Part shown: in pieces, positions 31,944-37,456 of the stretch
Layout of the letters: every line of letters begins with the position of its first letter
Position numbering within the stretch: position 1 is the first letter of the stretch
Assembly (NCBI GenBank): GCA_017429475.1
Contig: JAFROX010000014.1
Location: 1-50,917, forward strand
DNA: 50,917 nt
From: Bacteroidales bacterium
GTDB lineage: Bacteria; Bacteroidota; Bacteroidia; Bacteroidales; UBA932
Reading direction: 5' to 3'
Made by a program: the position numbers and the translations under genes
Notes under the pieces: model-generated
What the model was told of the DNA's origin: nothing
What the model saw: the letters and a program-made list of their open reading frames with translations, nothing else
Databases searched by the model: none

Positions 31944-32705
31944 CTATTTGTCTCTTTCAGTATAAGTTATCCTGAACATACTTGGCCAGTACTTGCCGGT
32001 CAGGTATATCTCCTTGGTGTCAGGATTGTATGCAATGCCGTTGAGCACGTCGGTTCGGTTTGTGTGCCTGAACGTCGTCTGCAGCATACGGCAGTCCAGC
32101 ACGCCCTCCACGACTCCGTTCTTCGGCTCGATGATCACTATCTGGTCCTTGCCGTAGACATTGGCCCAGACCTTTCCATTGATATATTCCAGCTCGTTCA
32201 GATAAGGAACCGGATGGCCGTTGAGCGTCACCGTCACTTCCTTTTTCTGGGCGAAAGACGACGGGTCCATATAGAACAGCTTCGACGAGCCGTCGCTCAT
32301 TATGAGGTCGGTGCCGTCCGTGGTCAGGCCCCAGCCCTGATGGTTGTTGGGGAACTGGCCTGTAACTTCGAAGGTTGCAGGATCCATCACGAAGCAGACG
32401 CCTTCCATCCAAGTAAGCATATATAGCTTTCCGTTCAGGATGCAGCTGCCTTCAGCGAAATAGGCCTGGTCGAAATCGACGCGGTGCAGGGCCTTCCCGC
32501 TTTCGAGGTCCACGCGGCGCATCGTCGATTCGCCGTACTGTCCTGTGCTTTCATAGAGTTCCCCTTCGTGGAAGAACAAGCCCTGGGTATACGAACTCAC
32601 GTCGTGGGGCAGCGTCTGCTCCACGTTGCAGTTGTAATACACCACGCGCCCGGTGCCGCACGAAGCGCACAGCAGTATGGCAAGCAGAAGCGAAAGGACT
32701 CTCAT
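31944..32705 (-). CDS. glutaminyl-peptide cyclotransferase (glutaminyl cyclase) lipoprotein
   Basis: Bacterial-type glutaminyl cyclase, a beta-propeller enzyme that turns N-terminal glutamine into pyroglutamate on secreted proteins. Family stretches include SSYTQGLFFHEG, ELYESTGQYGES, NELEYINGKVWANVYGKDQI and VLNGIAYNPDTKEIYLTGKYWP. The N-terminus is a lipoprotein signal with lipobox LCASC. I chose the second ATG (32705); the first at 32711 is only 7 bases from the -7 element. In Bacteroidota many exported proteins start with Gln after signal cleavage, which gives this enzyme abundant substrates. Confidence 0.88.
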   Translation of the reverse strand: MRVLSLLLAILLCASCGTGRVVYYNCNVEQTLPHDVSSYTQGLFFHEGELYESTGQYGESTMRRVDLESGKALHRVDFDQAYFAEGSCILNGKLYMLTWMEGVCFVMDPATFEVTGQFPNNHQGWGLTTDGTDLIMSDGSSKLFYMDPSSFAQKKEVTVTLNGHPVPYLNELEYINGKVWANVYGKDQIVIIEPKNGVVEGVLDCRMLQTTFRHTNRTDVLNGIAYNPDTKEIYLTGKYWPSMFRITYTERDK

Positions 32706-32718
32706 TTTCATACGGACG

Positions 32719-32750
32719 CAAAGATATAGTTTTTTTGTTTATGCTGCCAA
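32719..32750 (-). promoter_or_regulatory. glutaminyl cyclase promoter
   Basis: Minus-strand TTG (32750-32748), a 21-base spacer and TATCTTTG (32726-32719). It overlaps the rightward promoter region of the phosphatase gene. The inferred start would leave a leader of only a few bases. Confidence 0.5.
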
Positions 32751-32764
32751 CTTGCGTAAATTGC
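32734..32764 (+). promoter_or_regulatory. possible promoter of the PAP2 phosphatase pseudogene
   Basis: TTTG (32734-32737), 19 bases, then TAAATTGC (32757-32764), an imperfect -7 element. It ends 3 bases before the ATG at 32768, so the transcript would have little or no leader. Confidence 0.35.
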
Positions 32765-32767
32765 GAT

Positions 32768-33496
32768 ATGAAACGTTTTCTCTCCACATTTATTGCTGCG
32801 GTTCTTCTATGCGTGGGACTGTCAGCCCAGAATTATGAGCCCTATCTCACACAGGAAGAAGTAAAGAGCAGCATCGCCCTGCTGCCGCCTCCGCCCGAGG
32901 AAGGGAGCGTCGAGTTTCTTATGGACAAGATCGCCCACTGGCAATATTTCCACGTACGCACAACCGATCCCGAGCGGGCAAAGCAAGCCATAGAAGACGC
33001 TGAGATGGACAATATCGGAGAAAAGTTCTTCGAGTCTTTCGGCCTTCTGATCACCCCGGAGACTATGCCGGAAACCTATCTGCTGCTCAGGCGCTCCCGC
33101 TAGTGTTTCGGCTCTTCCGGCAGCAACGAGGCCAAGCGCCACTACAACAGGACACGTCCTTTCGTGTATTTTTCGTGCCCTACACTCGTGCCGAACGATG
33201 AGGGCTGGCTCGTCCACAACGGCTCATATCCTTCCGGCCATACAGCAAACTTTTTCGGCATTGCGTATGTCCTTGCTGACTTAAGGCCGGAACGTGCTCC
33301 CCAACTGCTTGAGCGTGCTAATCAGGGCGGCATTTCACGTCTTATCGTAGGAGTCCACTGGGCCAGTGACGTGGCCGCTGGACGTATGGTGGCCGCATCC
33401 GTGTTTGAATATCTCAAGAAAGACCCCGAATATCAGGAGCAGTTCCGCAAGGCCAAGGCCGAAGTGGACTTCCTGCTCAGCCAGATTTCCGAGTAG
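32768..33496 (+). pseudogene. PAP2-type acid phosphatase interrupted by one in-frame amber codon
   Basis: One continuous reading frame of 243 codons carries a signal peptide (MKRFLSTFIAAVLLCVGLSA) and all three class A acid phosphatase/PAP2 motifs: KRHYNRTRP (K-x6-RP), PSGH, and SRLIVGVHWASD (SR-x5-H-x3-D). A single TAG at 33101-33103 splits it after codon 111, before the first motif. No frameshift is present and the total length is normal for the family. The genuine stop at 33494-33496 is also TAG. It is either a recent nonsense mutation, a sequence error or, less likely, readthrough. Confidence 0.88.
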
Positions 33497-33937: not shown

Positions 33938-36900
33938 TTACTGCACAACTACAGGCGGAGCGCCCGGCTGCCAGTCGGGAGCCTTGAACGGTGGCTTGAC
34001 TGACATCTGTGAGGGCGAAGCCTTGCGGTTGATCTCATCGTATTCGAGGAACTTCTCGAAGCTGCATTCCTCGCCGCTGAGTTTCATTATCCTCTGGTAG
34101 ATGGCCCAGCGTGAAGGTGCATTGAAGTACTCCAGGTTCTCCCGCATCATACTGTTCTGAGTCGGACGCCAGGCTCCTTTTGCGTAGAGAGCACCACCTT
34201 CGAAGATACCGACCTGCCCGTCATATCGGGCGTCATCGAGGAATGCACTCCAGCGGATCTTCTTCGGATCGTTGGTGAAGTCCACATTCGCAAACCAGCC
34301 ATACTTGTTGTATACGTCGTTGTAGTACGCGATGTGTTCGGCTGTCGCCGCTTCCGAATACTGGGTATATTCATCTGCCAGGAATCCGAAGCCGTGGCCG
34401 CCGGACTCGTGACGGAGAGTAAAGCCGAAGACGGAAGGATCGTTGGCCATTGATGAGAAATATGCAACGCACGTCTGTCCGTCTGGGTACATAAATGTAG
34501 TACCTGAGTGCCTGCGTGAATTGGCCACGACAGTCACAAGCAAGTTGTCCCGGGAGGTTATTGAAGGAACCTTCAATGCATATTCATAGCATTTCTCATT
34601 GTTTCCTGCTATGTATGAGCCCACGCCGAATCTGGTGGACAGAGCGGTCGAATAGCCTTCGCCGATACGGCCATTCTTGGATACCACCTTCACCGCATAC
34701 ACATTATAGCGGTTGCGGAAGGTCTTGTAGGGCTCGATGGCGAAGAATTCCTCCATCGCCTGCTTCATAACGGTTTCGTAAAGGCCGCCTGCTCCCATAT
34801 CCTTGTCGGTGTATGCATCACCAAGGAACACGAGATCGATGCCCTTGCCGACCGATGCCTTCTGAAGAGTCATCACCTCGCCGTCCTTAGAATAATCCTT
34901 AGATTCGTATGTATCAGGTATCTCGGCCGGTCCCAGCAGGGTTTCCAGGAATGGAATCAAATCCGAGGAAGCGACCTTGCCGAAGCGGTTCCTTACCGGA
35001 TCGGGATAATTGGCGCAAGAGCTGAAAATGATATTGCCCTGCTGGTCATACACTTCAGCATTGGGCACTGAAGTCCAGTATGAATAAGTAGTATATTTTG
35101 TATAGTAATAGTTGTACCATTGGTCATATCCCTTCTCAATGCATTCTTTCTTCTGTTTTTCATAGTCATAGAAGAACGCGCCATCTTCATCCACCTGTAT
35201 CGTGGCAATGACTTCAAGACCATCCTGCTTGTAACGGTCATAATAGTCCTTAAGCTGCGGCATAAGTTCCTTAGAGAACGGACACCATAACGCCCAGTAA
35301 ATGTAGACCGTATATTTATTCTGCTTGATCACCTCAGGGATGGAGAAAGTCGTGCCGTCGAGATTCTCCAGCAACTGGTCTTCGAACCAGTTATCGACAC
35401 CGGGTATTTCAATGTCACTGATATCGAAGCCATAACCTGTTCTCTGCCATAGATTGCTTTCTTTGACGAAATTTCTCAAATCCTCTGAATTGTGGAACAG
35501 ATGGGAAATCTTCCCTGTGAGACAGTTGTTTTTCACTTCCATAAATCCGGCATAAGGAGCCCACGAGGCAGGAATCGAGCCAGTGAAAAAAGAATACCCT
35601 ACATCAAGATATTCCAGGACCGGAGAATGAAGACTCGCGGGGAGTGAACCTTTCATCGATTTATTATTACGAACATAAAAACGCTTCAGCTTATTCATTT
35701 CGCCGAAGATATCGGGAAGCGTCGTTATTCCTGTATTTTCGATAGAGAAATGTTCAAGGTTAACCAATTTGCCTATTGATTCAGGCATCGGACCCGTCAA
35801 ACCGGGCTCATCAAAGATTCGCAAATCATACAATACTTCGCTCAAATCACCGATATAATCGGGAATCGTTCCCTTCAACCCGAATTCGTAGAAATGGAGA
35901 TAAAGGCCTTTTTCGTCGAAATAAACTCCGCTCCATGAATCTATTGGTTTATCTGTACCCCAATTTTCTGCTTTCTTCCAGTTCGGTCCGTCCCAGGCAT
36001 TGTACAGCTTCATCAGTATCTCGCGTATCTCATTCTCCCTGCTGCCGCTCTGTACGATAGTTATTTCGACGGGATCGACATAGCCATTGTAATCAATGAG
36101 CGTAACCTTGCCGGTGCGTTCTTCCTCACTCCTGTTTTCATCAACATACAATATAATCTCACCACTTGCAGTTGACTTCGTGCTGTAAATGTGGATCCAG
36201 GATTCAGCCGACTCTTCCACATCCACGTAATAAGCGACATTGTATTCAACAGGAATAGTTACATATCCCCCCATAAATGAGACCTTGGACGGCTCGCCTA
36301 CAATCAATACCTTCTTTTCATACTGATAGACCGTCAGTGTGACGTCATCCACTTCTCCATTCTTGGCTTTCAGCGTCACTTTGCCCTCACGCTCATCCGT
36401 CGTTTCGTTCTCATCGACTTCGAACAGAAGTTTGCCGCTGCTTACTGTCTTGGTCCTGACATAATGGAGCCACGATGCCGCTGAAGTCTCCACTATCACT
36501 TCAAAGTCAACGTTATATCGGACATCAATCTCCAGGGAGCCTCCTTGCGAGGGTACCGTGGCCACTTGACCTACAACAATAATTTTATTCTCCGGCTCCT
36601 GAGCGAAAGTCAGCGTTATCGGCTCCAACTTGCCTGACTTGTCTCTCACAGTCACCTTTCCGCTGCGCAGATCGCCTTCATTCGCAGCAAACGTGAACTC
36701 CAATTTGCCGCTCTGCATCGCCTTGGTACCATTGTACCGAATCCACGACTGGGCGGACTTCTCTATCTCGACTGTGTACTCGGTGTTATATTGGATATCG
36801 ACCTGAAATGTTCCGCCTTCTGCCGGAATCCCCATTACATCACCGACTATGATGACAAGTTTGGGGTCCTGAGTGAACGTAATCGTCAGAGGTGCGACCT

Positions 36901-37456
36901 TGCCAGTCTTGTCAGTCACGGTCACCTTGCCCGTTCGGGCCTCGGTAATCTCATTTGCCGCAAACGTAAACTCAAGTTTGCCGCTATGCATAGCCTTCGT
37001 GCCGTTGAACGTTATCCACGACTGGGCGGACTTCTCTATCTCAACTGTGTACTCGGTGTTATACTGGATGTCCACCATGAAGGTTCCTCCTTCCGCCGGA
37101 ATCTTCGCGACATCTCCGACCACTATGGCTGACTTGGCTTCCTGATTGACGGAAATTGAGGCCGACAGCCCTTCGCTGTGGAAAGATACTGAGCGGAGCA
37201 TATCCGAAGTGGAGTTTGCCGCCGACACTGTGATGGTGACTGTCGCATCCCCTTCACCGGAGCTTGGAGACACTGATATTCCCGTGCCGCTGGCACTTGC
37301 CGTCCACGGATAATTGGCTGAAACCTTGACTGTTTGAGAACCACCGTCCTGACCGAATGAAAGATCGGTCGGGCTGACCGTCAGGAACGGAGCCGGCTTG
37401 CACCCTGCCGCCAGCAGGAGCGACGCCATCGTGAAAAGGGCAAGAAAACGTTTCAT
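33938..37456 (-). CDS. BACON-LRR-thioredoxin-like-M64 metallopeptidase lipoprotein
   Basis: A 1172-residue surface or periplasmic lipoprotein (lipobox LLAAGC, Cys19). In order: a BACON domain (about 25-105); four further BACON-like repeats (108-197, 199-287, 290-380, 381-470); leucine-rich repeats of the GxIPxxIGxL type (about 475-690); a thioredoxin-like domain (about 690-845) with WCPFS at 724-728 and probable cis-Pro798; and an M64 (IgA peptidase-type) metallopeptidase domain (about 855-1145) with HESGGH at 1016-1021, then LADEY, and a possible Met-turn NSMMREN. Family knowledge supports proteolysis of host or glycan-associated proteins. The substrate is unknown. It begins 23 bases after psd with no promoter seen, and ends at the terminator shared with rnpB. 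Confidence 0.88.
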   Translation of the reverse strand: MKRFLALFTMASLLLAAGCKPAPFLTVSPTDLSFGQDGGSQTVKVSANYPWTASASGTGISVSPSSGEGDATVTITVSAANSTSDMLRSVSFHSEGLSASISVNQEAKSAIVVGDVAKIPAEGGTFMVDIQYNTEYTVEIEKSAQSWITFNGTKAMHSGKLEFTFAANEITEARTGKVTVTDKTGKVAPLTITFTQDPKLVIIVGDVMGIPAEGGTFQVDIQYNTEYTVEIEKSAQSWIRYNGTKAMQSGKLEFTFAANEGDLRSGKVTVRDKSGKLEPITLTFAQEPENKIIVVGQVATVPSQGGSLEIDVRYNVDFEVIVETSAASWLHYVRTKTVSSGKLLFEVDENETTDEREGKVTLKAKNGEVDDVTLTVYQYEKKVLIVGEPSKVSFMGGYVTIPVEYNVAYYVDVEESAESWIHIYSTKSTASGEIILYVDENRSEEERTGKVTLIDYNGYVDPVEITIVQSGSRENEIREILMKLYNAWDGPNWKKAENWGTDKPIDSWSGVYFDEKGLYLHFYEFGLKGTIPDYIGDLSEVLYDLRIFDEPGLTGPMPESIGKLVNLEHFSIENTGITTLPDIFGEMNKLKRFYVRNNKSMKGSLPASLHSPVLEYLDVGYSFFTGSIPASWAPYAGFMEVKNNCLTGKISHLFHNSEDLRNFVKESNLWQRTGYGFDISDIEIPGVDNWFEDQLLENLDGTTFSIPEVIKQNKYTVYIYWALWCPFSKELMPQLKDYYDRYKQDGLEVIATIQVDEDGAFFYDYEKQKKECIEKGYDQWYNYYYTKYTTYSYWTSVPNAEVYDQQGNIIFSSCANYPDPVRNRFGKVASSDLIPFLETLLGPAEIPDTYESKDYSKDGEVMTLQKASVGKGIDLVFLGDAYTDKDMGAGGLYETVMKQAMEEFFAIEPYKTFRNRYNVYAVKVVSKNGRIGEGYSTALSTRFGVGSYIAGNNEKCYEYALKVPSITSRDNLLVTVVANSRRHSGTTFMYPDGQTCVAYFSSMANDPSVFGFTLRHESGGHGFGFLADEYTQYSEAATAEHIAYYNDVYNKYGWFANVDFTNDPKKIRWSAFLDDARYDGQVGIFEGGALYAKGAWRPTQNSMMRENLEYFNAPSRWAIYQRIMKLSGEECSFEKFLEYDEINRKASPSQMSVKPPFKAPDWQPGAPPVVVQ
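36596..37135 (-). repeat. tandem duplication of a BACON-like unit within the M64 lipoprotein gene
   Basis: Two copies offset by 273 bases (91 codons) encode residues 108-197 and 199-287. Stretches such as the one beginning at 36748 and 37021 on the plus strand are nearly identical at the DNA level, with mainly single-base differences. This indicates a relatively recent duplication or gene conversion. The other BACON-like units of the protein are more diverged. Confidence 0.7.

Follow-up and report, generated by a model that had tools for sequence, protein, structure and literature searches.

HEXXH is the textbook signature of zincins. In peptidase family M64 it is published as HEXXHXXXGXXD (PMC12402451, PMC12237041; statements about the papers cited here extend to those parts of their text that were available), and a 2025 survey of the family describes clusters that keep this signature apart from listed exceptions (PMC12402451). 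The M64 enzymes of known structure, BF3526 and IgAse, hold a structural zinc with one Glu and three Cys residues (PMC12402451). Here we analyze a complete gene, at positions 33938..37456 of the minus strand, in a 50,917-nucleotide stretch of DNA from a Bacteroidales bacterium (contig JAFROX010000014.1; the whole stretch is called the window below). Its product of 1172 amino acids is, with a probability that we put at roughly two in three, a lipid-anchored modular zinc endopeptidase from a branch of its own within the M64 (igalysin) fold, where the active-site helix carries HEXXXH and the structural zinc site has been dismantled. The ratio of nonsynonymous to synonymous substitution rates (dN/dS) against the orthologue in a genome of the same genus, G014, is 0.14 for the whole gene and 0.06 for its M64 part, which marks it as a real gene under constraint.

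The peptidase domain occupies residues 846-1172 (33941..34921, minus strand, as are all parts of the gene given below). It matches the Pfam model Peptidase_M64 in two stretches with 77.4 bits (cut-off 26) and, by phmmer, the solved M64 structure 3p1v (1e-8). An AlphaFold2 model of the domain, built from 82 aligned sequences, reached a mean predicted local distance difference test score (pLDDT) of 90.9 and a predicted template modeling score (pTM) of 0.89; Foldseek and VIA-align placed BF3526 and BACOVA_00663 first among its structural matches and the T. ramosa IgAse next, with other metzincins far behind. By its predicted fold, a metzincin core that retains the zinc ligands and the general base, the domain is thus M64, outside the printed signature. 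The first-pass annotation, which had been made from the sequence alone and had proposed a structure prediction, named the family correctly, but it noted neither the altered motif nor the absence of the cysteines that hold the structural zinc.

The zinc motif, HESGGHGFGFLADEY (residues 1016-1030; 34367..34411), lies in helix 171-187 of the model. Four residues, the catalytic Glu among them, separate its two histidines, which gives HEXXXH; it departs from HEXXHXXXGXXD by this one extra residue and by a Phe in place of the Gly. The third-ligand Asp, seven residues after the second His, is D1028, and the Met-turn residue is M1104, placed by alignment. In alignments of 36 and 82 rows the H, E, H, D, and Y of the motif are invariant, as is the Met-turn Met, whose frequency is 1.00 (rounded) in both groups of a joint alignment of 69 canonical and 130 clade rows. 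The three columns of the structural zinc cysteines behave differently in that alignment: Cys occupies them in 67/69, 59/69, and 48/69 canonical rows, the third count being lowered by 19 gaps, versus 0/130, 0/130, and 10/130 clade rows, where Ser, Asn, and Ser predominate and the window protein has S, N, S. The second zinc site is perhaps not a defining feature of M64. We rejected a disulfide as the replacement for this site, the two commonest clade-specific Cys columns being negatively associated (both in 26 rows, one alone in 35 and 47, neither in 22; n = 130).

Compared with BF3526 and BACOVA_00663 (M64, CL-I; PDB 9qdi, 4df9, 3p1v), to which it is 19-24% identical, the window protein therefore has HEXXXH instead of HEXXH and lacks both the structural zinc cysteines and the family glycine; in front of the peptidase it carries BACON, leucine-rich repeat (LRR), and thioredoxin-like domains where they have a beta-sandwich N-terminal domain, whose model PF16217 is not among the Pfam matches of the window protein. 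The same differences in motif and zinc site separate it from the family founder, T. ramosa IgAse/ThomasA (PDB 9qdh, 9i4z), which has other accessory domains.

The altered motif is widespread. Among 199 distinct M64 domains with a readable motif, 127 have HEXXXH and 72 HEXXH; identical domains, the open reading frames L108_1, L193, and L130_2968, which gave no match to the motif expression, and the short domains L128_1 and L195 were left out of this count. A sequencing or assembly slip was rejected as an explanation, since the form recurs in these 127 domains across many genomes, and on this sampling HEXXXH is the mark of a clade, not a one-off. Pfam detects M64 in 58/296 genomes across the phylum. 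Within the family of the window genome 48/99 genomes match the protein; by our reading, the match covers the peptidase part in 37 of these and is confined to BACON or LRR in the other 11. Across the order the alignment search is bimodal among the matches listed, with at least 202 bits in 9/247 genomes and at most 103 bits thereafter. The domains read in these nine genomes (the G497 locus, L195, is too short to count) are HEXXXH except for L192 of genome G594 (HEMGH) and one paralogue of the window genome on contig C14 (HECGH). A scan of GTDB genomes confirmed at least 455 relatives irrespective of motif and added at least 80 loci; its pattern, GHG[FIL][AG]xL[AGD]DE, undersamples relatives with GHA or GHS. 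The added loci are titled Bacteroidales or members of it, or Bacteroidia/Bacteroidetes, and include Phocaeicola coprocola, Bacteroides, Prevotella, and Alistipes as well as many metagenome-assembled genomes from rumen and gut.

Of 153 thinned rows we took 83, including 64 chosen at random, to build a tree with the motif masked; L193 was added by hand, to the tree only, and the long-branch rows L193 and L194 call for caution. With split support of 100/99, the tree separates canonical M64 (34 rows, all HEXXH) from the remaining rows (46 HEXXXH and 3 HEXXH), and the motif trait requires 4 changes, versus 27.5 in shuffles. Two HECGH proteins, L094 and L005 (the latter being the C14 paralogue), are nested inside HEXXXH groups with starred support and are best read, from their positions, as reversions to HEXXH. 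A clade of all HEXXXH rows without these nested HECGH rows was rejected (approximately unbiased test, p-AU 0.00056). L192 is unplaced in the free tree; constraining HEXXXH together with the two reversions to a group without it gave a likelihood 8.45 higher and a p-AU of 0.659, which is not proof. The simplest story that these sequences would tell is one insertion after L192 had branched off, followed by two deletions. In the printed alignment the structural zinc cysteines are missing from L192 as well, one Cys lying a single column away from the first site, so loss of the structural zinc seems to have preceded the insertion. The genome of the window itself encodes three paralogues with three forms of the motif, HESGGH (contig C6), HEVAGH (C12), and HECGH (C14).

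HEXXXH itself is already known from dipeptidyl peptidase III (DPP III, family M49), which shares the motif as HEXXGH where the window protein has HESGGH, and from tubulin carboxypeptidases; within M64 it is new to the literature that we found. The likeness to DPP III is confined to the motif: in DPP III a separate EECKAD-type motif supplies a Glu as the third zinc ligand, and by eye no second M49 motif (EECR/KAE/D) with a third ligand is conserved in our alignments, an EECSFE near residue 1129 being unconserved. A DPP III fold is not among the listed Foldseek and VIA-align matches of the M64 model, in a search that was not aimed at that fold. We propose an active-site helix with one extra residue between the zinc histidines and a Gly just before the second. 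In this helix H1016, H1021, and D1028 would bind the catalytic zinc and E1017 would activate water, while Y1030 would contact the scissile carbonyl like Y324 of BF3526 and M1104 would form the Met-turn; the positions come from alignment, and the roles are what we infer from them. The extra residue is probably absorbed as a helix bulge that keeps the zinc geometry, as we assume to be the case in DPP III. The tubulin carboxypeptidases TMCP1/2 (KIAA0895L) share HEXXXH but are gluzincins and eukaryotic exopeptidases (PMC10499314).

The insertion can also be taken to break the zinc site, leaving a pseudo-peptidase domain that only binds proteins. We regard this as improbable, although a number of observations weigh against our own reading and several of them fit such a domain directly. 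Besides the inserted residue and the loss of the structural zinc site, the glycine that the family has four positions past the second His, present in 56/69 canonical rows, remains in 2/130 clade rows, and with both glycine and cysteines gone the third-ligand loop must be held differently. One open reading frame with a clear M64 match (L108_1) has no motif, so that some copies may be dead, and the two independent reversions (L094, L005) might mean that the insertion costs activity. In simulations of DPP III, whose family has both hexa- and pentapeptide forms, a Gly added to a natural pentapeptide disturbed zinc coordination, with the catalytic Glu entering it (PMC5805324). The third-ligand Asp in 130/130 clade rows is built in, the motif expression having required it, and L193 (HETVGHAFGWLAEEY, ending in AEEY) has Glu at this position. 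We found no assayed enzyme of the branch in the open-access literature. On the other side, H, E, H, D, and Y do not vary in 36 and 82 rows, although a domain used for binding alone could afford to lose them, and HEXXXH enzymes from other families are active (PMC10499314, PMC5805324). The dN/dS of the M64 part, 0.055-0.095 across the compared orthologues, likewise speaks against a pseudo-peptidase, the values against the two genomes other than G014 being rough, with synonymous divergence (dS) of 1.5 and more, saturated or nearly so, and one not computable.

On balance we favor the broader proposal that a large undescribed branch of M64 metzincins from gut and rumen Bacteroidales lost its structural zinc and then gained HEXXXH, that it is active and represents an independent origin of this motif on the metzincin fold, and that the two reversions and the HEXXH stem protein L192 record the steps. 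We found no description of HEXXXH in M64 in the open-access literature, which misses most subscription papers. Two Bacteroidia-only clusters of the 2025 survey, CL-IV (379 proteins) and CL-XII (7), might contain the branch (PMC12402451). HExxGHxxGxxH has been printed, in the part of PMC10469887 that was available, for M12B and not for M64, an M64 effector being mentioned separately. The part of PMC11669294 that was available contributes nothing on the motif. If our proposal is true, the branch mirrors DPP III, a family in which HEXXGH is usual and HEXXH exceptional. An active branch would require corrections to motif-based annotation and to the definition of M64, would make a stepwise history readable from living sequences, and would allow the effect of a single residue to be measured among the HESGGH, HEVAGH, and HECGH paralogues of one genome. 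What makes the branch interesting is that it contradicts the published description of the family, that its evolutionary steps can be read, and that three natural motif forms occur side by side in one genome.

Pfam, phmmer, and Foldseek of the model bear out the order of domains first proposed for this protein, namely, lipobox, five BACON repeats, LRR, thioredoxin-like domain, and M64. Residues 1-19 (37400..37456), MKRFLALFTMASLLLAAGC, read by eye from the translation as a lipoprotein signal peptide ending in the lipobox LAAGC, and from this sequence the protein is probably tethered to the membrane by a lipid anchor. Acidic residues after the lipobox cysteine serve as an export signal. The residues found there are KPAPF, without such a signal, which weakens the proposed surface exposure; of the "surface protease" in the first-pass annotation, the M64-type peptidase fold stands, whereas display at the surface may only be presumed.

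The BACON repeats (residues ~25-475; 36032..37384) match Pfam PF13004 in five stretches (3e-39) and BACON_2 (9.5e-18). Two neighboring repeats share a stretch of 206 nucleotides with 79% DNA identity. Relative to the G014 orthologue (L008), synonymous divergence is a mosaic, 0.335 in BACON (window 36032-37384) versus 0.03 in the LRR, 0.02 in the thioredoxin-like, and 0.081 in the M64 part, as if the BACON array had recombined. The LRR domain (residues ~476-672; 35441..36031) reaches no Pfam LRR cut-off. Its residues ~497-668 match ectodomains of plant LRR receptors (phmmer, best 2.8e-31), and a predicted model of the LRR, thioredoxin-like, and M64 domains matches PGIP (8ikw/1ogq) and plant receptor LRRs in Foldseek, which supports a plant-type (PS) LRR sequence and solenoid fold. 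This model, from 23 sequences, has a pLDDT of 85.7 and a pTM of 0.69, too low for reading the placement of the domains. The LRR is the least constrained part in comparisons with other genera, and its dN/dS against the very close G014 orthologue is 0.525, from few changes. The BACON repeats would form an extensible stalk that holds the enzyme off the membrane, and the LRR is the likely substrate-choosing surface.

The full chain of BACON, LRR, and thioredoxin-like domains before M64 was present in 30 of 113 clade proteins, after 17/130 cut at a locus edge had been left out; the profiles were home-made with loose thresholds, and BspA-type LRRs (as in L051) were not scored as LRR. LRR and thioredoxin-like domains together were found in 28/113, BACON alone in 27/113, BACON with LRR in 6/113, LRR alone in 3/113, and none of the three in 19/113, and the 30 full-chain proteins have 1 to 7 BACON copies. 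By these profiles the chain is a recurring but variable set of modules before a constant peptidase. Thus, the earlier suggestion of an undescribed chain holds insofar as we found no description of it in the open-access literature, but the chain is not unique to this protein. Other modules occur as well: Big_2 with BspA-type LRR_5 precedes the peptidase in L051 (C14), and Big_2 with LRR_1/LRR_14 repeats in L050 (C12), both paralogues from the window genome, while in L151 of Phocaeicola coprocola DSM 17136 the HEXXXH form (HEANGHGFGLLGDEY) follows a fimbrillin-like domain and LRRs; this named species offers laboratories a convenient source of the enzyme.

The modules had suggested binding to glycoproteins or mucin, and one could picture an immune-evasion or mucus protease that docks on glycans via BACON and LRR and cleaves immunoglobulin A (IgA) or mucin. 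The founder of M64 cleaves IgA (PMC12402451, PMC12237041), many relatives come from gut and rumen, and BACON is found in M60-like peptidases, among them a mucin-degrading one (PMC3267712). Its name and older predictions point to carbohydrate or mucin binding, but the BACON of BoGH5A has been proposed to be a membrane spacer (PMC11216935), and BACON by itself is therefore no evidence for glycan binding; the modules are present, and the glycan binding ascribed to BACON is weakened. BT4244, a Bacteroides metallopeptidase that resembles the window protein in having BACON, differs in its M60-like catalytic domain and its CBM32, and no LRR or thioredoxin-like domain is mentioned in the available part of its description (PMC3267712). 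The case for IgA as a target comes from the name of the family, and BF3526, a characterized M64 peptidase of Bacteroides, leaves intact IgA uncut (PMC12402451). The neighbors of the gene in the window, psd, cdsA, and ftsH, do not make a mucin locus. We thus consider a role on IgA or mucin unsupported and very unlikely, and advise caution against naming such proteins IgA peptidases. In a Bacteroidales genome paper an M64 family call was taken as possible immune evasion (PMC4936053), although the type of M64 there may differ.

The thioredoxin-like domain (residues 676-845; 34922..35431) exceeds the Pfam cut-offs for Thioredoxin_8 (33.8 bits, cut-off 27) and AhpC-TSA (27.3 bits, cut-off 26), has phmmer matches to StoA (3erw, 4.3e-6) and ResA, and shows in the predicted model a strand-helix order that fits a thioredoxin fold. 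The fold as first proposed is thus supported; its assignment as a thiol or folding module is not in the ordinary sense. In the alignment to 3erw, WCPFS of the window protein stands at WCPPC of StoA, so that C725-P-F-S728 (35273..35284) is CxxS. A profile search over 129 clade proteins detected the domain in 66, the window protein included; 38 of these have CxxS, the others have lost one or both positions, and CxxC is aligned at the site in 0/66. In L157, which is among the 66, WCSFC occurs at another place in the sequence and not at the aligned thioredoxin site. With the resolving cysteine lost, an ordinary thiol oxidoreductase is unlikely. With synonymous sites close to saturated, the dN/dS of the domain against G034 and G052 is 0.075 and 0.092 (M64, 0.095 and 0.055); against G014 it is 0.25, from few changes. 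As the former values are about as low as those of M64, the domain matters, though not as an ordinary oxidoreductase.

Without its resolving cysteine, the domain would serve as a scaffold beside the catalytic domain. It is considerably less likely to be a thiol holdase that, like ERp44, traps substrates rich in disulfides by forming mixed disulfides and hands them over to the protease. CxxS protein disulfide isomerases have been termed holdases (PMC12384036), the Ser is invariant at the second position and the Cys present in at least 90% of a 23-row alignment of the LRR, thioredoxin-like, and M64 domains, and the domain is under constraint (dN/dS 0.075-0.25). Yet the Cys is lost in L095 (WSPFS), which shares 51% identity with the window protein across the aligned region, 28 of the 66 detected domains are not CxxS while the peptidase persists regardless, and 55/113 clade proteins have no detected thioredoxin-like domain.

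Of the gene neighbors in the window, psd and cdsA belong to phospholipid synthesis, and ftsH was named from its translation. We rejected a conserved psd-cdsA-ftsH operon as a functional clue, since among the loci compared, which had flanks of a few kilobases, these neighbors adjoin the gene in G000, G014, and G079, all of one genus, and nowhere else except for relatives of psd and birA in L161. Downstream of the M64 gene lies a glutamine cyclotransferase gene (31944-32711, minus strand; Glu_cyclase_2, 2.3e-91), which directly adjoins the M64 genes in G014 and G079. In the window, a PAP2-type phosphatase frame (32735-33496, plus strand) intervenes and adjoins the gene; an in-frame stop at 33101-33103 interrupts it, leaving two open reading frames in one frame, of which the second alone matches PAP2. 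In place of the single M64 gene of the window, contig C23 of G079 (L042, ~4.8-14.4 kb) has three tandem M64 genes flanked by psd and the gene for glutamine cyclotransferase, the first of the three with a stop inside its match, marking a site of local expansion.

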